64,000 nucleotides of DNA from positions 62,001 to 126,000 of the forward strand of contig WBSG01000004.1 of the NCBI GenBank assembly GCA_008923285.1, written 5' to 3'. The notes under the pieces were generated by a model that did not search any database, had not been told where the DNA came from, and worked only from the letters and a program-made list of their open reading frames with translations. The translations under genes and the position numbers were made by a program. Below, piece after piece: positions 1,465-12,291 of this stretch; position 1 is the stretch's first letter, and every line of letters starts with the position of its first letter. The stretch is from Betaproteobacteria bacterium SCN2 (GTDB lineage: Bacteria > Pseudomonadota > Gammaproteobacteria > Burkholderiales > Thiobacillaceae).

Positions 1465-1549
1465 TTCTCTCATTCGGTCACGCGGCTTTTTTCGACTAGG
1501 ACAAGCCAGGCGGCAGGCCATTTGTCATCTTCCCCGGCCTGCCCGGATA

Positions 1550-2446
1550 ATGGCCGGCATTGTTGCTGTTCATCGAGTGCATCGGGTGCTGGATATCTAT
1601 GTTTTGGACAAGTCGCGCATGGGGCCGCGCAGCGGCTACAAGCTGCGCCATCTGCTCGACCGCCTGACCCTCAGGGGCCAGCCGTGGACCCTGTGCGATG
1701 CGCGCGACATCGGCAGGCGGCAAGGCGCCAGGGCCTTTCTGCATGTCGACCTGAGCAATGACCCTCCCGAATTCTCGGCACTGACGCAGCATTACGACAG
1801 GGTGATCAACGGGCATGCTTCCAGCATCGACCGCCGGCTATACTCTGCCGCGCGCGTCTTGCAGGGCCAGGCATGTGACGCTCCGGTCATCGTCAAATCG
1901 ATATTCAACCACCGCGGCAGTTCAGAGCTCCGTCATGCCGAAAAGCACGATTTCTATCCCAGGCTGCGCCGCTCGGTGCTGAAAATTGTATATCCCGGGT
2001 ACAGGAAAAAGCTGTGCCCCCCGTACCGGGTTTTCAAGCACATCGACGAGGTGCCGCGTTCGGTCTGGTCGAATCCGGCCCTCATCGTGGAAAAATTCCT
2101 CGCCGACCCTGCCGCACCAAGCATCACCAAATGGCGCTGGGATTTCTGCCTCGACGAGGGCATCACGACCGAGGCGGTTTTCTCCGACCCCCTGTGCCAG
2201 CCCGAAAGCATGCTCTCGGTCGGCACACAGCCTGCCCCGCCTGCCGAGATTGCCGCCCTGCGTTCGAAAATGCGACTCGACTACGGCTCGATCGACTTTT
2301 TCATGACGCCCGCAGGCGCCGTCCCGATCGACGTCAACAAGACGGTCGTGGTCACCCGATCCTGGGTGGATACGCAGGCCTTCCTGCAGGTGCATCTCGA
2401 CCGTTCCGCCGATGTGCTGGCCCGCTTTGCCCGGACTGAGCAATGA
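1550..2446 (+). CDS. ATP-grasp-like protein coupled to the cyclodipeptide-synthase-like gene
   Basis: A 298-residue protein with ATP-grasp hallmarks. There is a central lysine strand (PVIVKS, about residues 112-117) followed by a Gly-Ser turn (HRGSSE), a hinge-like strand (ALIVEKFL), and a C-terminal block MRLDYGSIDFF...PIDVNKT in which Asp and Asp-x-Asn could bind the metals. The N-terminus (LDIYVLDKS) looks like a small Rossmann lobe. ATP-grasp enzymes usually join a carboxylate to an amine or thiol through an acyl phosphate. The stop overlaps the start of the next gene (ATGA), so the two are probably translated together. The start could be the ATG at 1550 or a GTG at 1586; neither has a strong ribosome site. 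Substrate unknown. Confidence 0.72.
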   Translation: MAGIVAVHRVHRVLDIYVLDKSRMGPRSGYKLRHLLDRLTLRGQPWTLCDARDIGRRQGARAFLHVDLSNDPPEFSALTQHYDRVINGHASSIDRRLYSAARVLQGQACDAPVIVKSIFNHRGSSELRHAEKHDFYPRLRRSVLKIVYPGYRKKLCPPYRVFKHIDEVPRSVWSNPALIVEKFLADPAAPSITKWRWDFCLDEGITTEAVFSDPLCQPESMLSVGTQPAPPAEIAALRSKMRLDYGSIDFFMTPAGAVPIDVNKTVVVTRSWVDTQAFLQVHLDRSADVLARFARTEQ

Positions 2447-3195
2447 GCAGACAGCCGCCGCGGACAAGCCTTTTCGACCAGCGCATCGAAACACGAAAGG
2501 GAAACGCCAGCCTGGCCGACATCGCGCAGCGAACCGCCCACCTGATGATCAGCATCAAGAACCGCGCCTTCGATACCGCGCTGATCGATCATTTCTGCCA
2601 TCTCGTCACGCAATACTTTGCCGCGGGGCTGGTCACCATCGTCGACAGTCCCTACATCCACAACATCACCGCGGAAACCTCCGACCCCGCCGAAGTCGCG
2701 CGCCGGACGACGACCCTGGCCATGCTGTCGCAAGAACGCAGCCGGAACGTACAGCGCCGCATTCGGCACAATGGCGCGACCGGGCTGAATTTCCTGCCAT
2801 GGGCCGAGCTTGCCGCCCAGACTCCCGCCTGGATAACAGCCGAGGTGCTGGCCGCCTACAACCGTCGGGGAGCCTTCCATGCCGCGGTGGCCGAACAGAC
2901 CCGCAAAATTCGCGGCGCGCGTGCTTTTGTCATGCAGGAGGAAAGCGATGCGTTCCTGCTGGAAGAGATTCCGCCGCTGATCTGGGCGTATTACGGCCTG
3001 GCCGGCGGAGTGGCCGATTTCTATCCCGGCCCGCAGATGCCGCTGTTCTGGGACATCGATCGCGGCCGCATGGCGGCAGAACTGCCGCGTATCTCCGCCC
3101 TTGCGGCAGGCCATCCCGGCCACGTCTATGTCGAGCTGATACGCCGGACAGCATCAAGCGGCAACGGTGCAGTCGCACGGATCGAAACTCCGTAA
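2443..3195 (+). CDS. Divergent tRNA-dependent cyclodipeptide synthase-like protein
   Basis: A 250-residue protein matching the cyclodipeptide synthase (CDPS) pattern, a class-I aminoacyl-tRNA-synthetase-like fold that makes diketopiperazines from two aminoacyl-tRNAs. LMISIKNRAF at 34-43 puts Ser at 37, Asn at 40 and Phe at 43, the same positions I remember in AlbC (nucleophile Ser37). A second strand IVDSPYIHN (66-74) precedes an Arg-rich helix (QERSRNVQRR, 97-106) suited to tRNA binding. FLLEE (171-175) supplies the glutamate expected at AlbC Glu182, with Phe where Tyr178 lies. FYPGPQ (193-198) resembles the Tyr-Pro pair of the XYP subfamily. Length fits the family. The call rests on remembered motifs, and the altered Tyr178 position means activity is unproven. 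Confidence 0.62.
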   Translation: MSRQPPRTSLFDQRIETRKGNASLADIAQRTAHLMISIKNRAFDTALIDHFCHLVTQYFAAGLVTIVDSPYIHNITAETSDPAEVARRTTTLAMLSQERSRNVQRRIRHNGATGLNFLPWAELAAQTPAWITAEVLAAYNRRGAFHAAVAEQTRKIRGARAFVMQEESDAFLLEEIPPLIWAYYGLAGGVADFYPGPQMPLFWDIDRGRMAAELPRISALAAGHPGHVYVELIRRTASSGNGAVARIETP

Positions 3196-3234
3196 CCACA
3201 ACCGGATCGGGGTCTGAACTGATGAACTGACTGG

Positions 3235-3251
3235 CGGGAGGGGGACTCGAA
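3235..3251. repeat. Partial duplicate of the tRNA-Leu 3' end (candidate att remnant)
   Basis: Exact 17-base copy of positions 5250-5266. It covers part of the acceptor stem and the T stem-loop of tRNA-Leu; similarity stops abruptly on the right (AAAGATTT instead of the continuing T stem), so it is not a second tRNA gene. Confidence 0.75.
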
Positions 3252-3474
3252 AGATTTCCTCCAGGCCTTGCGCCGCAAGGAACCGTAAAATTCTGGCATT
3301 TAAAATTTCCCCACAATTGAGGCATTAGCCTTCAATCGGCAGGGCGATCATTACCATTTAGAAAAAATAATTTTTACAATTAAAAAATTAGACCCAAGTA
3401 TGGAAATCGCCACTAAGACCTTGTGTCAAGTTGGCAGATCAAGTGGCAACTAACTTTCACCCGAGCGTCTTGAC

Positions 3475-4338
3475 ATGGATACACCTAAGACCAGCATCGT
3501 CGCGTATGTACTTGCCATTGACAGCATCGAGGAACGCATGAAAAACGCCAGGGATCTTATGGATTCGCTGGAGTCCCTCGACGTTGTACAGGAGGTTTCC
3601 CTCGCCCCAGCCATCTACTGGAAAGAGCCGCAAAAGATCACGGAATTCCTCACCCGGTTCCCAGAGCATACATTCACGCGGAAATTCCTGCGCAAGTACA
3701 GGATGGGACAAGTGGCCACTGCATTGAGCCATATAAGCATCTGGCACCGCTTGCTCGAGAGCAAACATGATGCTGCAGTGGTTTTCGAAGACGACATCCA
3801 CATCAGTGACGTAATCGGATTCAGGCAGACCATGTTCGAATTACGCGATCGCCAGAATCCTGAATGGCTACGAATCCATCTGCACAAAAGGTTTCGAGAT
3901 CAAGTGCTCAGCACAAGAGCGGGTGGCCTGTTTGCCGACGATCCGATGCCCTGGGGGTTTGCCACCTACTATGTCACCAGGTCTGGCGCCAGAAAGATGC
4001 TGGAGTGCTGTCGGCAAATGGATGGGCCGATCGACTGGCTGCCGCCCCTGTTGAAACAGCGTGGCCTTATGGCTACCAAGACCGTAACGGAGGTTGTAGT
4101 CGAACATCATGACTTTAACGGCGATAAAAGCGAGCTGAGCCAGCGCCACAAGATTGAATCTACTCCCGATACAATACAAAAGTTTTCCAGCACCATTTGG
4201 ACCTCGCCATCCGTGTCCGGGAATATTGAGATGTTCCGTTTTCTATCACGCCTGGCCCGTACCGGCGAATCGCGATCGGGCGACTGGGGCTCTGCCTATA
4301 CACCCAAAATGACGATTTGGCCGTTCAAGCGAAACTAG
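3475..4338 (+). CDS. Family 25 glycosyltransferase (LPS/capsule sugar transferase)
   Basis: A 287-residue glycosyltransferase of the GT25 (LOS/LPS biosynthesis) type. The family core is clear: GQVATALSHISIW at 78-90 followed by the acidic nucleotide-sugar site VVFEDDIHI at 102-110, then PWGFATYYVTRSGA, the usual second block. There is no signal peptide, as expected for a cytoplasmic enzyme acting at the inner membrane on lipid-linked or LPS-core acceptors. It lies inside the AT-richer islet at tRNA-Leu, with the dioxygenase gene seven bases behind it. The two may modify one cell-surface glycan. The sugar and acceptor are not predictable. Confidence 0.82.
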   Translation: MDTPKTSIVAYVLAIDSIEERMKNARDLMDSLESLDVVQEVSLAPAIYWKEPQKITEFLTRFPEHTFTRKFLRKYRMGQVATALSHISIWHRLLESKHDAAVVFEDDIHISDVIGFRQTMFELRDRQNPEWLRIHLHKRFRDQVLSTRAGGLFADDPMPWGFATYYVTRSGARKMLECCRQMDGPIDWLPPLLKQRGLMATKTVTEVVVEHHDFNGDKSELSQRHKIESTPDTIQKFSSTIWTSPSVSGNIEMFRFLSRLARTGESRSGDWGSAYTPKMTIWPFKRN

Positions 4339-4345
4339 AAATATC

Positions 4346-5077
4346 GTGTCCTATTCACGTCTTGCCAATGTCATCGAATTGCGATCGGGCGGCATTACCG
4401 TTCTGCGAGGTATTTTTGACAAGACGAGTGTTCGGCATGCAAGGGCGAAGGTGCTCGACAATAGGTTCCTGTTCAAGAACACCAGACCCACGCCATCCGC
4501 CGGACATCTCGCAGGCTTTCATCGATTTCCCGCGCTCGAACCCTTGCACACCATGCTGTCTTGCAATTCCGCCATCATCGAGTTTCTCGATTTCAGATTG
4601 AATGGAGAGGGGGTCCGCAGCATTGGCCTAAGCGATATCACAATAAATCGCTCACAGGAGTGGCATAACGATTTATTGCGGGGCAAATTCCAGGACTATC
4701 TTGACGACGCACTCAACTGGGATGTCGACGGCGGTGGCGTATATAAAGTGCTTTTCTACCTTCAGGACGGCGCCAGCCTGAAATATATCAAGGGCTCTCA
4801 CACCAAGCCGATTCCCCTGGAGAACGACAGGTACGCCGAGCCAGGCGACGGTACGGAAATCACCTCGGTTTGTGTCAACGCAGGAGATGTTGTCGTCATG
4901 GATATTCGGTGTTCGCACAGAGGCGCGGAGGAGTCTTTTTATGCGAACGGTCAGTTTGATGAAAACCCGCGAATACTGATTTCTACCGTGTTGGGCGGGG
5001 TGAACCACAAGCTGACCAATGCCATGGAAGCCGGCAACTTTCAACGGCTGCAAGACTGGATGCGGCGCCACCCTTGA
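4346..5077 (+). CDS. Phytanoyl-CoA dioxygenase (PhyH)-like Fe(II)/2-oxoglutarate oxygenase
   Basis: A 243-residue protein with a double-stranded beta-helix signature. EWHNDL places the metal ligands at His107 and Asp109. YLQDGASLKYIKGSHTKP (about 138-155) is the typical PhyH strand ending in Gly-Ser-His, and CSHRG gives the distal iron His191 with a nearby Arg for 2-oxoglutarate. Such enzymes hydroxylate lipids, amino acids or natural products. It starts with GTG at 4346, immediately after the glycosyltransferase stop. Co-location suggests tailoring of a surface sugar or lipid, but a role with the upstream CDPS-like pair cannot be excluded. Substrate unknown. Confidence 0.78.
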   Translation: MSYSRLANVIELRSGGITVLRGIFDKTSVRHARAKVLDNRFLFKNTRPTPSAGHLAGFHRFPALEPLHTMLSCNSAIIEFLDFRLNGEGVRSIGLSDITINRSQEWHNDLLRGKFQDYLDDALNWDVDGGGVYKVLFYLQDGASLKYIKGSHTKPIPLENDRYAEPGDGTEITSVCVNAGDVVVMDIRCSHRGAEESFYANGQFDENPRILISTVLGGVNHKLTNAMEAGNFQRLQDWMRRHP

Positions 5078-5243
5078 GCCTTGATAACCGTCTAGGCGCG
5101 TAACGACGCGTCCACCTTCACTGGCCCGGTAATGGCTGCTCTGTGCGTTGCTTTTTCCTCGGCTACTGGCGCATCAATCAGGCCAGTTTGCTTGCCATCG
5201 CTGAGATTTTTGGATTTTTTTCGGACTTGCCTGGAAGTCCTGC

Positions 5244-5330
5244 TGGTGCCGGGAGGGGGACTCGAACCCCCACAGTGTTACCACCGGCGGATTTTGAATC
5301 CGCTGCGTCTACCGATTCCGCCATCCCGGC
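5244..5330 (-). tRNA. leuX: tRNA-Leu (anticodon CAA)
   Basis: The minus strand folds as a class II tRNA. The acceptor stem GCCGGGA pairs with TCCCGGC and the 3' CCA is encoded. The anticodon stem GCGGA/TCCGC encloses the loop TTCAAAA, giving anticodon CAA (TTG codons). There is a long variable arm, and the T arm contains GGTTCGAGTCCC. The 87-nt length including CCA fits tRNA-Leu. Its 3' end abuts the islet. The symbol is used by analogy with the E. coli CAA isoacceptor. Confidence 0.95.
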
Positions 5331-8425: not shown

Positions 8426-10237
8426 ATGAATCGCTATCCGCTCTGGAAATATCTTCTCATCGGCCTGCTGCTGGTGGTGGCCTTTCTGTACACACTGCCC
8501 AATTTTTACGGCGAAGTGCCCGCAGTGCAGGTCTCGCCGCTGAAAACCACGCAACAGGCTGACGAAGCCCTGCTGAAGCAGGCTGAAGCCGCCGTGCTGG
8601 CGGCGGGAGTCAAATCCGACAGCGCCTTCATCGACGGCAACAGCGTCAAGCTGCGCTTTGCCAGCGCCGACGAGCAGATCAAGGCCAAGGACGCGCTGCA
8701 GGCTGCCCTCGGCGACCGCAACACGGTGGCGCTCAACCTGCTGTCGGCTTCGCCGCAGTGGCTGACTTCCATCCGCGCGCTGCCCATGTACCTGGGCCTC
8801 GACCTTCGCGGCGGCGTCCACTTCCTGCTGCAAGTGGACATGAAGGCTGCGCTGGACAAGGCCGCCATCCGCACCCAGGGCGACATCCGCACCGAACTGC
8901 GCAACGGGAAAATCCGCTACAGCCGCATCGCGCGCGAGGGCAATCAGGTCGAGGTCAAGTTCTCCACCCGCGACCAGCGCGATGCCGCCATCCAGGCCCT
9001 GTCCCGCGCCTACCCCGACCTGAACCTGACCGGCCGCGACGGCGCCGAGGAATTCAGCATCGCCGTGACGCTGAAACCCGAGGCCGAGCGCCGCATCCAG
9101 GAATTCGCCGTCAAGCAGAACATCCAGACCCTGAGAAATCGCGTCAACGAACTGGGCGTGGCCGAGCCGGTGATCCAGCAGCAGGGCGTCGACCGCGTGG
9201 TGGTGCAGCTGCCCGGCGTGCAGGACACCGCCAAGGCCAAGGACATCCTCGGCCGCACCGCGACCCTGGAAATCCGCCTGGTCGACGAGGAAGGCGACGT
9301 CAATGCCGCTGCCGCCGGCCAGATCCCCTTCGGCGACGAGCTCTACCAGAGCCGCGACGGCTATCCCATCCTGGTGAAAAAGGACGTGGTGCTGACCGGC
9401 GACTCCATCACCGACGCCTCGCCCGGCTTCGACAACAACAACCGGCCGGCCGTGCACATCAACCTCGACGGCAAGGGCGCGCGCATCTTCAAGGATGTCA
9501 CGCGCGAGAACGTCGGCCGCCGCATGGCCATTCTGCTGATCGAGCACGGCCAGACCGAGGTCATCACCGCCCCCACCATCCAGGAAGAAATCGGCGGCGG
9601 CCGCGTGCAGATCACCGGCATGGATTCGCCGCAGGAGTCCTCCGACGTCGCCCTGCTGCTGCGCGCCGGCGCGCTCGCCGCGCCGATGACCATCGTCGAG
9701 GAGCGCACCGTCGGCCCCAGCATGGGCAAGGAGAACATCGCCAAGGGCTTCAATTCGAACAAGTGGGGCTTCGTCGCGGTCGTGCTGTTCATGATTTTCT
9801 ATTACCGCGTGTTTGGCGTGTTCTCTTCGCTGGCGCTCGCCGCCAACGGCCTCTTCCTGATCGCGCTGCTGTCCATGCTGCAGGCCACCCTGACCCTGCC
9901 CGGCCTCGCCGGTATCGCGCTCACGCTGGGCATGGCAATCGACGCCAACGTGCTGATCAACGAACGCGTCCGCGAGGAACTGAGGAACGGCGCCAGCCCG
10001 CAGGCCGCGATCCACGCCGGTTATGAGCGCGCCTGGGCCACCATTCTCGACTCCAACCTGACCACGCTGATCGCCGGCATCGCCCTGTTCTGGCTCGGTT
10101 CCGGCCCGGTGCGCGGCTTTGCCGTGGTGCTGTGTCTCGGCATCCTGACCTCCATGTTCAGCGCAGTGACGGTGTCGCGCGCCATGGTCAACCTGACCTA
10201 CGGCCGCAAGCCGCGCCTGTCGAAAGTCTCCATCTGA
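8426..10237 (+). CDS. secD: Protein translocase subunit SecD
   Basis: SecD (603 residues) pairs with SecF in the inner membrane and uses the proton gradient to finish export of preproteins from SecYEG. It has an N-terminal transmembrane helix (LLIGLLLVVAFLYTLPN), the periplasmic P1 ferredoxin-like domain with YLGLDLRGGVHFL, and five C-terminal membrane helices. The RND-type motif GMAIDANVLINERVREE lies in TM4 with the conserved Asp of the proton path. It is followed ten bases later by secF. The start lacks a clear Shine-Dalgarno because a hairpin repeat sits directly upstream. Confidence 0.97.
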   Translation: MNRYPLWKYLLIGLLLVVAFLYTLPNFYGEVPAVQVSPLKTTQQADEALLKQAEAAVLAAGVKSDSAFIDGNSVKLRFASADEQIKAKDALQAALGDRNTVALNLLSASPQWLTSIRALPMYLGLDLRGGVHFLLQVDMKAALDKAAIRTQGDIRTELRNGKIRYSRIAREGNQVEVKFSTRDQRDAAIQALSRAYPDLNLTGRDGAEEFSIAVTLKPEAERRIQEFAVKQNIQTLRNRVNELGVAEPVIQQQGVDRVVVQLPGVQDTAKAKDILGRTATLEIRLVDEEGDVNAAAAGQIPFGDELYQSRDGYPILVKKDVVLTGDSITDASPGFDNNNRPAVHINLDGKGARIFKDVTRENVGRRMAILLIEHGQTEVITAPTIQEEIGGGRVQITGMDSPQESSDVALLLRAGALAAPMTIVEERTVGPSMGKENIAKGFNSNKWGFVAVVLFMIFYYRVFGVFSSLALAANGLFLIALLSMLQATLTLPGLAGIALTLGMAIDANVLINERVREELRNGASPQAAIHAGYERAWATILDSNLTTLIAGIALFWLGSGPVRGFAVVLCLGILTSMFSAVTVSRAMVNLTYGRKPRLSKVSI

Positions 10238-10247
10238 GGACCGCAAG

Positions 10248-11195
10248 ATGATCCGTTTTTTCGATGTCGACCGCGTCATCCCGTTCATGCGCTACGGGAA
10301 GACCACCACGACCATTTCACTGGGCACCTTCATCTTCGCGGTGTGGGCGCTGTGGGCGTATGGCCTCAACCTGGGCGTGGACTTCACCGGCGGTACGGTG
10401 ATGGAAGTCAGCTACAGCCAGCCCGCGCAGCTCGACCAGATCCGCGGCTCGCTGGAGAGTACCGGCTTCAAGGAAGTCTCGGTGCAGAACTTTGGCACCT
10501 CGCGCGACGTGCTGGTTCGCCTGCCGGTCAGCAAATCGGCCAACGCAGCGCAGATCAGCGAACAGGTCATGGCCACGCTCAGGGCCAACAACCCTGATGT
10601 GGTGCTGAAGAAAGTCGATTTCGTCGGCCCCCAGGTCGGCAAGGAACTCTACGACAACGGCGCGCTGGCGCTGTTCGTGGTGGCGGTCGGCATCATGATC
10701 TATCTGGCGATCCGCTTCGAGTGGCGCTTCGCCGTGTCCGGCATGATCGCCAACGCCCACGACGTGGTCATCATCCTCGGCATGTTCGCCTTCTTCCAGT
10801 GGGAGTTCACCCTCACCGTGCTGGCCGGCATCCTCGCCATCCTCGGCTATTCGGTGAACGAATCCGTGGTAGTGTTCGACCGCATCCGCGAGAACATCCG
10901 CAAGATGCGCAAGGCCAGCATCCCCGACATCATCGACGCCTCCATCACCCAGACCTTCAGCCGCACCATCATCACCCACCTCTCCACCCAGATTGTCGTG
11001 CTGGCGATGTTCTTCTTCGGCGGCGAGGCGCTGCACAACTTTGCCCTGGCGCTGACCATCGGCATCATGTTCGGCATCTATTCCTCGGTGCTGGTGGCCT
11101 CGCCCCTGCTGCTGATGCTCGGCGTCAAGCGCGAGCACTTCCTGCGCGAAGACAAGCCCAAGGAAGGCGTGACGGCGGACGGGGCGCAGGTCTGA
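10248..11195 (+). CDS. secF: Protein translocase subunit SecF
   Basis: SecF (315 residues), the second half of the proton-driven SecDF complex. The N-terminus has a first membrane helix, then the family motif GLNLGVDFTGGTVMEV and the small periplasmic domain. The C-terminal membrane domain contains GYSVNESVVVFDRIRENIRK, equivalent to the SecD TM4 motif, and ITHLSTQIVVLAMFFFGG. The ATG is preceded by GAGGACCGCAAG. Together with yajC and secD it forms the standard operon. A hairpin repeat begins six bases after the stop. Confidence 0.97.
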   Translation: MIRFFDVDRVIPFMRYGKTTTTISLGTFIFAVWALWAYGLNLGVDFTGGTVMEVSYSQPAQLDQIRGSLESTGFKEVSVQNFGTSRDVLVRLPVSKSANAAQISEQVMATLRANNPDVVLKKVDFVGPQVGKELYDNGALALFVVAVGIMIYLAIRFEWRFAVSGMIANAHDVVIILGMFAFFQWEFTLTVLAGILAILGYSVNESVVVFDRIRENIRKMRKASIPDIIDASITQTFSRTIITHLSTQIVVLAMFFFGGEALHNFALALTIGIMFGIYSSVLVASPLLLMLGVKREHFLREDKPKEGVTADGAQV

Positions 11196-11308: not shown

Positions 11309-11905
11309 ATGCTGCACCAATTCATCGACTGGATTCTCGCCACTGTCCACGACTGGGGCTACCTGGGGATTTTCATCCTCATGGGCCTCGAATCCACCGT
11401 GCTGCCGGTGCCGAGCGAGGCGGTGCTGATCCCCGCCGGCTACCTCGCCCACCAGGGCAAGATGAGCTTCGAACTGATCGTGCTCGCCTCCACCTTCGGC
11501 AGCCTCGCCGGCGCCACGCTCAACTACGTGTTCGCGCTGTGGGTGGGCCGTCCCTTCCTCGAGCGCTGGGGCAGGTACTTCTTCGTGCGCCCCGAACTGC
11601 TGCACAAGACCGACGCCTTCTTCGAGAAACACGGCGCGATTTCAACCTTCACCGGACGCCTGATTCCCGGCATCCGCCACCTGATCTCCCTGCCCGCCGG
11701 CCTCACCCGCATGCACTATGGCAAGTTCGCCTTCTACACCTGCCTGGGCGCGGGCATCTGGTCGATCATCCTCACCGCCATGGGCTGGTACATCGGCGGC
11801 AACGAGGACCTGATCCGGCAGTATCTCAAGCAGATCACCGTCGGACTGATACTGCTCATCGGCGCCGGCATCGCGCTCTACTGGTGGTGGCAAAGGAAAA
11901 GCTGA
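11309..11905 (+). CDS. DedA/SNARE-associated family membrane protein
   Basis: A 198-residue DedA (VTT domain) protein with four to five membrane helices. Family motifs are FILMGLESTVLPVPSEAVLIPAGYLA near the N-terminus, GSLAGATLNYVFALWVGR, and TGRLIPGIRHLISLPAGLTRMHYGKF, where the Arg residues are those needed for DedA function in E. coli. Family members flip or recycle undecaprenyl phosphate or other lipids across the inner membrane and support envelope homeostasis; which lipid this one moves is unknown. The next gene (YchJ family) overlaps its 3' end. Confidence 0.92.
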   Translation: MLHQFIDWILATVHDWGYLGIFILMGLESTVLPVPSEAVLIPAGYLAHQGKMSFELIVLASTFGSLAGATLNYVFALWVGRPFLERWGRYFFVRPELLHKTDAFFEKHGAISTFTGRLIPGIRHLISLPAGLTRMHYGKFAFYTCLGAGIWSIILTAMGWYIGGNEDLIRQYLKQITVGLILLIGAGIALYWWWQRKS

Positions 11906-12291
11906 ACCCCTGTCCCTGCGGCAGCGGCAAATCCCTGTACGACTGCTGCGGGCGCTTTCTCGACGGCGGCGAACGCCCCGCCACGGCCGAGGCGCTGATG
12001 CGCTCCCGCTATACCGCCTTCGCGCTGGGCAATGCCGCTTATCTGCTGGCCAGCTGGCATGCGGCGACGCGGCCCGAGCGGCTCGATTTCGACAGCCAGC
12101 CGGCGCCGAAATGGATCGGGCTGAAAGTGCTGCGCCATGAACAACAGGACGCGACCCACGCCATCGTGGAATTTGCCGCGCGCTACAAGGTCAACGGCCG
12201 CGCCTTCAGGATGCGGGAAACCAGCCGCTTCGTGCAGGAAGACGGACGCTGGTATTACGTGGACGGCGATACGGCGGACGCTTCGTCCTGA
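11887..12291 (+). CDS. ychJ: YchJ family protein with N-terminal SEC-C zinc motif
   Basis: About 134 residues. The N-terminus NPCPCGSGKSLYDCCG is a SEC-C zinc-binding motif; the following AEALMRSRYTAFALGNAAYLLASWH and FAARYKVNGRAFRMRETSRFV are the YchJ/UPF0225 middle domain (NTF2-like). The most likely start is GTG at 11887 (or 11884), inside the end of dedA, so translation is probably coupled. The molecular role of YchJ proteins is not established; SEC-C motifs often mediate protein or ribosome contacts. Confidence 0.88.
   Translation: MAKEKLNPCPCGSGKSLYDCCGRFLDGGERPATAEALMRSRYTAFALGNAAYLLASWHAATRPERLDFDSQPAPKWIGLKVLRHEQQDATHAIVEFAARYKVNGRAFRMRETSRFVQEDGRWYYVDGDTADASS

Follow-up and report, generated by a model that had tools for sequence, protein, structure and literature searches.

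The closest described relatives of the protein reported here are the cyclodipeptide synthases (CDPSs) of the XYP subfamily, defined by any residue at position 40 and a proline at position 203 (PMC13062777, in which RCDPS is the third CDPS subfamily). According to PMC5816076, most XYP enzymes are proteobacterial, and their product groups include cAE, cLE and cGE. The solved XYP enzymes compared here are those of Fluoribacter dumoffii (5ocd), Nocardia brasiliensis (5mlq) and Rickettsiella grylli (5mlp). The catalytic residues of CDPSs are given in PMC7566563 as S37, Y178, E182 and Y202, almost strictly conserved in active CDPSs; the same source places the tRNA contacts of XYP enzymes on strands beta2 and beta7, with the basic motifs K-hydrophobic-X-F in beta2 and L(R/K)FKK in beta7. 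Replacing Tyr178 by Phe in AlbC is reported to impair acyl-enzyme formation (PMC5935735), and XYP CDPSs in which Phe was put for this Tyr are reported still to make product, at lower yield (PMC7613923). PMC7613923 also describes a Ser/Asp interaction involving D58 of ParcuCDPS, an Asp near the nucleophile being essential in one XYP enzyme. As for genomic contexts, PMC2922099 (Aravind, de Souza and Iyer 2010) reports CDPS genes that neighbour a second peptide ligase, belonging either to the Mur or to the GNAT type, and, in one Burkholderia and one Pseudomonas, CDPS genes next to those of 2-oxoglutarate-dependent dioxygenases; in its section on these operons the ligases are not of the ATP-grasp kind.

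Here we compare with these systems a pair of overlapping genes in the window (the whole stretch of DNA analysed, 64,000 nucleotides; Table 1). The second gene encodes a protein, P0001, that resembles the three solved XYP enzymes in its model fold and at the places of Ser37, Asp68, Glu175 and Tyr194-Pro195. It differs from them in having Phe at the place of Tyr178, in sharing only 13–14% identity with 5ocd, 5mlq and 5mlp (structure alignment), in basic strands that match partly, in scores that lie under the profile cut-offs and in having a putative ATP-grasp partner. As in the cases of PMC2922099, a further peptide ligase appears to stand beside the CDPS gene, here of putative ATP-grasp type instead of Mur or GNAT type. 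It is nearly certain that P0001 is a remote CDPS homologue, and to judge from its sequence we consider it probable (roughly 0.6) that it is an active, highly divergent CDPS of the XYP type.

Table 1. Features of the CDPS-like locus and its surroundings (positions in the window)
Feature	Position	Strand	Basis
Variable segment between conserved flanks	1465..5243	.	homology to congener locus L112 stops at 1464 and restarts at 5244
Partner gene, 298 aa, putative ATP-grasp ligase	1550..2446	+	family comparison; no Pfam model
ATGA overlap of partner stop and CDPS start codon	2443..2446	+	sequence
CDPS-like protein P0001, 250 aa	2443..3195	+	TIGR04539, A1 alignment, AlphaFold model and structural matches, coding frame
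Ser37 codon, aligned with the CDPS nucleophile	2551..2553	+	Ser in 22/22 CDPS-like loci
Asp68 codon, aligned with the conserved Asp after strand 3	2644..2646	+	Asp in 19/22
Phe171 codon, place of AlbC Tyr178	2953..2955	+	Tyr in 19/22, Phe in 3/22
Glu174-Glu175 codons; Glu175 at the place of AlbC Glu182	2962..2967	+	Glu174 in 21/22, Glu175 in 22/22
Tyr194-Pro195-Gly196 codons; places of AlbC Tyr202 and XYP Pro203	3022..3030	+	Tyr in 20/22, Pro in 17/22
att-like scar directly downstream of the CDPS gene: 20-bp copy (19/20) of the 3' end of tRNA-Leu	3232..3251	+	suggestive only
tRNA-Leu (CAA), edge of the variable segment	5244..5330	-	ARAGORN

The frame of P0001 (ATG start) is intact over 250 codons, in agreement with the preliminary description of this DNA. 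Its codon score of 0.232 is the best in its stretch (-0.106 for the antisense ORF 2281–3123 and -0.983 for the plus-strand ORF 2412–3230, both of which overlap the gene), and 2443–3195 on the plus strand is the likeliest coding frame there. Two genes for comparison are yajC, at 0.455, and that of the neighbouring hydrolase, at 0.211; the scores of queA and tgt of the window are no fair yardstick, since the codon score was trained on both.

The preliminary description had called the gene divergent and CDPS-like, and had proposed an HMM search with PF16715 as a check. That search came back empty (no Pfam family, PF16715 included, at E ≤ 10), and a search of PDB sequences with the single P0001 sequence found no CDPS, its only two rows (E = 0.93 and 1.6) being other proteins. 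The NCBIfam model of tRNA-dependent cyclodipeptide synthases (TIGR04539) matches residues 26–162 with E = 1.8e-5, at 24.4 bits, which does not reach its curated cut-off of 45. A CDPS profile built without P0001, from 21 of the 22 CDPS-like loci (L028 left out), gives P0001 16.2 bits over residues 25–153; with the same profile the best of 2,000 shuffles reaches 3.8 bits and the reversed sequence 1.0. The 22 CDPS-like proteins were taken from the places found by TIGR04539 across the class, plus one PF16715 find. By these comparisons the sequence homology to the CDPS family is significant, for the matched stretch of residues 25–162 only. The proposal of a divergent CDPS-like gene is thus upheld by the TIGR04539 match, the profile score against shuffles, the alignment of the catalytic residues and the predicted fold.

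Across the class, TIGR04539 matched in 18 of 369 genomes (the one with P0001 included): five over the cut-off, and 13 further genomes, among them P0001's own, under it. PF16715 gave a single match over 300 genomes of the order (in G112; E = 6e-4, under the cut-off), and the protein clusters in the tree with the Legionella-type set. We also aligned P0001 with 24 of 32 Legionella-type loci (alignment A4). At E ≤ 1, TIGR04539 matches all 25 members and PF16715 only nine, therefore the Pfam model misses many relatives besides P0001. The profile of A4 retrieves the solved Fluoribacter CDPS with E = 1e-107, so the relatives used belong to the CDPS family. Such proteins are overlooked or scored too low by public profiles, so that the makers of diketopiperazines are perhaps under-counted. 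In some genomes of Legionella and its relatives, two or three distinct CDPS-like genes occur together (L045/L073; L044/L068/L071; L046/L067; L043/L047; L059/L072).

P0001 is 13–19% identical to the 14 CDPS-like relatives (out of 22) with which it was aligned in A1. When it was compared pairwise with 46 relatives, residues 131–207 (with Phe171, Glu175 and Tyr194-Pro-Gly) matched L026 best (Z 5.9) and residues 26–84 (with Ser37 and Asp68) matched L036/L049 best (one protein entered twice; Z 5.6), while 26 of the 46 relatives stayed below Z 1. L026 (genome G603) and L027 (G698) share with P0001 the residues Asn40 and Phe178 (AlbC numbering), the Tyr-Pro-Gly and an AYxxxGxF stretch; overall they are only 14–15% identical to it, and the pairwise Z of L027 is only 2.8. 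By eye, no ATP-grasp-like neighbour was noticed in 16 kb around each of the two genes. Both genomes are small (about 1.0 and 1.1 Mb) and of the gammaproteobacterial class. In the tree (rows L021, L028, L035 and L037 trimmed beforehand), the terminal branch of P0001 is 10 changes per column long and its composition is unlike the rest, so we draw no placement for it.

The preliminary description had also proposed to superpose a structure prediction on AlbC. The AlphaFold2 model of P0001, made from its alignment with 24 CDPS loci, has a mean pLDDT of 64.5: block means are 64–89 over residues 21–190, and values lie below 50 for residues 1–15 and 193–250, the latter including Tyr194. In Foldseek the first 40 rows, and 46 of the best 50 listed, are CDPSs (best E 2.2e-5; AlbC 1e-4), with TM-scores by model length of 0.40–0.52 in the first 40 rows. 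VIA-align likewise ranks solved CDPSs highest: the Fluoribacter enzyme (5ocd; Z 14.2, rmsd 3.9, 188 residues aligned), the Nocardia enzyme (Z 13.5) and AlbC (Z 13.0, rmsd 3.3, 181 aligned, 16% identity) are among the first 23 rows, all of them CDPSs with Z of 9.7 or more; the first tyrosyl-tRNA synthetase follows at 9.3. These structural matches agree with the earlier proposal of a CDPS-like protein, and P0001 is predicted to have a Rossmann fold like that of solved CDPSs, in a model that is poor at the C-terminus and guided by the alignment. This match is supportive, but it is not independent, because the alignment given to the predictor was itself made of CDPSs.

Ser37, Asn40, Phe43, Phe171, Glu175 and Tyr194-Pro195-Gly196 all stand at the positions that the preliminary description gave for them. 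In A1 the columns of Ser37, Glu174, Glu175 and Tyr194 are invariant and those of Trp120 (kept in 20 of the 22 CDPS-like loci) and Pro195 nearly so; in a leave-one-out comparison P0001 alters none of the four columns that are invariant in the 14 others. Of the four catalytic residues usual in CDPSs, P0001 as aligned has three (Ser37, Glu175 and Tyr194); at the place of the fourth, Tyr178, it has Phe171. The placing of Glu175 and Tyr194 rests on the alignment and on the comparison with L026, because the profiles match only residues 26–162 and 25–153. The earlier assignments of Glu175 to the place of AlbC Glu182 and of Tyr-Pro-Gly to an XYP-like motif both hold when the 22 CDPS-like loci are counted (Table 1). 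Asn40 and Pro195 give P0001 the XYP signature; the NYH subfamily (Asn40 and His203) does not fit, as P0001 has Asn40 but Pro195. Asp68 is presumably the equivalent of D58 in ParcuCDPS. Phe171 had been pointed out as a departure from AlbC. The residue is there, but it is not unique, since three of the 22 relatives also have Phe at this place (L026, L027 and L035) and Phe is tolerated in XYP enzymes (PMC7613923). An enzyme with a natural Phe for Tyr178 would be a test of the role of that residue. The arginine-rich helix, earlier likened to a tRNA-binding one, has its arginines (five in residues 97–108), but these say little about tRNA, the contacts of XYP enzymes being on beta2 and beta7 (PMC7566563). 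RTSLF (residues 7–11) and LIRR (232–235) show partial likeness to the basic XYP strands, which the model does not resolve. Taken from the sequence, activity of P0001 is plausible, not assured.

The stop codon of the partner gene and the start codon of P0001 overlap by 4 bp, and because of this ATGA overlap the two genes are probably translated together. The partner protein itself has no Pfam and no NCBIfam match. Its family has 16 further places and a match in seven of 120 genomes (its own counted), with three copies in its own genome (two beyond 1550–2446), five in G027 and four in G069, in varied gene contexts. The window partner was aligned with 12 of the 16 other matches (alignment A5; L008, L012, L016 and L018 left out). 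These 13 members have no significant Pfam or NCBIfam match; there are four weak NCBIfam rows, of one member each, three of them to ATP-grasp or D-Ala-D-Ala ligase models (E 0.11–0.23) and one to trehalose-phosphatase (E 0.1). K116, D249, D261 and N263 are invariant in the family, and we take the kept Lys and the Asp/Asn near the C-terminus to be as in ATP-grasp enzymes.

Comparison of the partner family with two RimK-family proteins by hhalign gave E = 5e-4 over 105 columns. Against 16 ATP-grasp proteins E was 0.011, over only 38 other, N-terminal columns, and against 11 of those proteins, without the RimK pair, it was 0.071. When proteins were scored one by one with the family profile, one RimK-family protein came first (33.7) and the other reached 25.0, whereas the highest score among 46 other ORFs of the window was 23.2, a value that none of the remaining ATP-grasp proteins exceeded. 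The partner is thus like RimK-type ligases in its C-terminal 105 columns and a D-x-N type motif, and unlike them in having no significant Pfam or NCBIfam match and in the few N-terminal columns aligned with the set of 16. The window copy is altered at nine of the 33 positions that are invariant among 12 family members. Its single-sequence structure model has a pLDDT of 32.5, so that the fold is not confirmed by it. The only PDB row for the family profile, at E = 0.9, was a subunit of a viral polymerase and no relative, and none was found for the partner in viral and plasmid collections. We regard the partner as a putative ATP-grasp ligase of a family without a Pfam model.

Ten ORFs near nine other copies of the partner were examined with Pfam: two are parts of recJ, two encode methyltransferases, three are unnamed by Pfam, and an ABC transporter, an HI0933-like protein and a carrier protein account for one each. 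Nothing ties the partner family to CDPSs, since the neighbours of the other copies are varied and the family-wide search gave no second CDPS; a working partnership of P0001 with its neighbour is possible, and we put it forward tentatively. In the same genome, a carrier-protein-like gene (PF00550; about 11612–11941) is found some 1 kb away from one paralogue of the partner (L082, about 9833–10672).

Catalytic activity, the product, and the ATP-grasp assignment and chemistry of the partner are what we infer from these comparisons: a cyclodipeptide is most likely made by P0001, and the partner may modify it. The aminoacyl group of a first charged tRNA would be transferred to Ser37, and that of a second charged tRNA would be joined to the Ser37-bound one with Glu175 as the base; Tyr194 would aid the release of the cyclic dipeptide, and Phe171 would cover the packing part of the usual role of Tyr178. 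The ATP-grasp partner, probably made from the same message, would then activate a carboxylate on the product and join it to an amine. The candidate carboxylate is a Glu side chain, since several XYP product groups incorporate Glu, and a ring containing Glu would therefore offer the partner a carboxylate to activate. If true, the coupling of a CDPS with an ATP-grasp ligase would add to the tailoring chemistry of cyclodipeptides. A further step, speculative and somewhat unlikely, would be to see in the pair a two-enzyme pathway of which the papers cited here give no account: the CDPS would form an acid-bearing ring, and an ATP-grasp ligase from a family not yet described, translated together with it, would conjugate that ring into ligated diketopiperazines of a new class. 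The CDPS would then represent a lineage with Asn40, Phe178 and Pro203 that perhaps includes L026 and L027.

No orthologue of P0001 was found in the samples from its family, order and phylum or in the plasmid, phage and viral samples; these searches covered genome samples and pattern scans, and absence holds only within them. Specifically, a pattern scan of a collection of genome contigs matched 87 stretches, with no relative of P0001 among them; 61 related genomes (its own included) held no closer relative; and the plasmid collection and the viral contigs gave no relative at the sensitivity used. The A1 profile found no close homologue and no second CDPS over 117 genomes of the family, and only P0001's own genome over 398 of the phylum, and the protein itself found no close homologue over 399 genomes of the order. 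Two sets of rows from these searches were taken as chance: a phage row (E = 0.8, 28.9% identity, residues 53–123) among nicotinamide transport/adenylyltransferase genes, and three rows from the order (E 0.003–0.009, 57–92 residues) in frames of 384–1,328 residues, one with a stop.

In L112 and L113, the two congener loci in which both flanks recur, other DNA takes the place of the segment that holds the two genes: a P-type ATPase gene is found at this site in L112, and other genes, including a nuclease gene, in L113. In L114 and L115, likewise congener loci, only the queA side is shared. A tRNA-Leu (CAA) is present in three of the four loci (L112, L114 and L115) and not in L113. Because the segment is replaced in congeners, and because of the copy of the tRNA end, the CDPS gene and its partner were probably acquired as a two-gene unit. 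As to how telling the copy is, its 16-base repeat core gave two or more matches (up to three mismatches) in 21 of 100 shuffles, the two copies in the window being exact; for a 24-base tRNA pattern, again with up to three mismatches, the tRNA itself was the only match.

How P0001 should be read depends on how much weight is given to its divergence. The missing Pfam match, the single-sequence PDB search that gave no CDPS, and the tyrosyl-tRNA synthetases that also match the model (Z about 9) could mean that its CDPS likeness is due to chance or to the general Rossmann fold, as in a tyrosyl-tRNA synthetase; since TIGR04539, the 21-locus profile, A1, Foldseek, VIA-align and the pairwise Z values all favour CDPSs, this is hardly credible. 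Its presence in one genome only, at a variable locus beside a tRNA, its long branch and a codon score lower than that of yajC would also fit a gene that was captured and is now in decay or no longer active. We think this quite improbable, for the frame is intact and overlaps the partner, the codon score is about that of the neighbouring hydrolase gene, and all four invariant columns are kept amid a rest that has mostly changed, which decay would not spare.

A different chemistry would have P0001, with its CDPS fold, move an aminoacyl group from tRNA onto Ser37 and then to some other acceptor, perhaps made or used by the partner, so that no free cyclodipeptide is formed. The low identity outside the active site (13–19%), the branch length of 10, the change at the place of Tyr178 and the overlapping putative ligase gene are all in keeping with such a role. 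But P0001 retains Pro195 as well as Tyr194, which aligns with the tyrosine that assists ring closure; this points to a continued need for cyclisation, and we hold this alternative to be unlikely. An active CDPS of the XYP type that makes a cyclodipeptide is the reading we prefer.

Between the copy of the tRNA-Leu end and the tRNA-Leu itself lie a glycosyltransferase family 25 gene and a PhyH-like gene (3475–5077; G+C about 52%). We weighed a functional link between these genes and the CDPS but did not adopt it, given their G+C (about 52% versus 62%), the gap of 279 bases and the tRNA-Leu copy in between; the copy suggests, without being proof, that the two genes arrived separately. PhyH-like proteins belong to the class of 2-oxoglutarate-dependent dioxygenases. 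The PhyH-like gene may nonetheless be linked to the CDPS, because genes of that class are among the CDPS neighbours described in PMC2922099. At the same variable site in congener G005 (L113, 2228–3394), a 388-residue ORF with no Pfam match looks ATP-grasp-like by eye.
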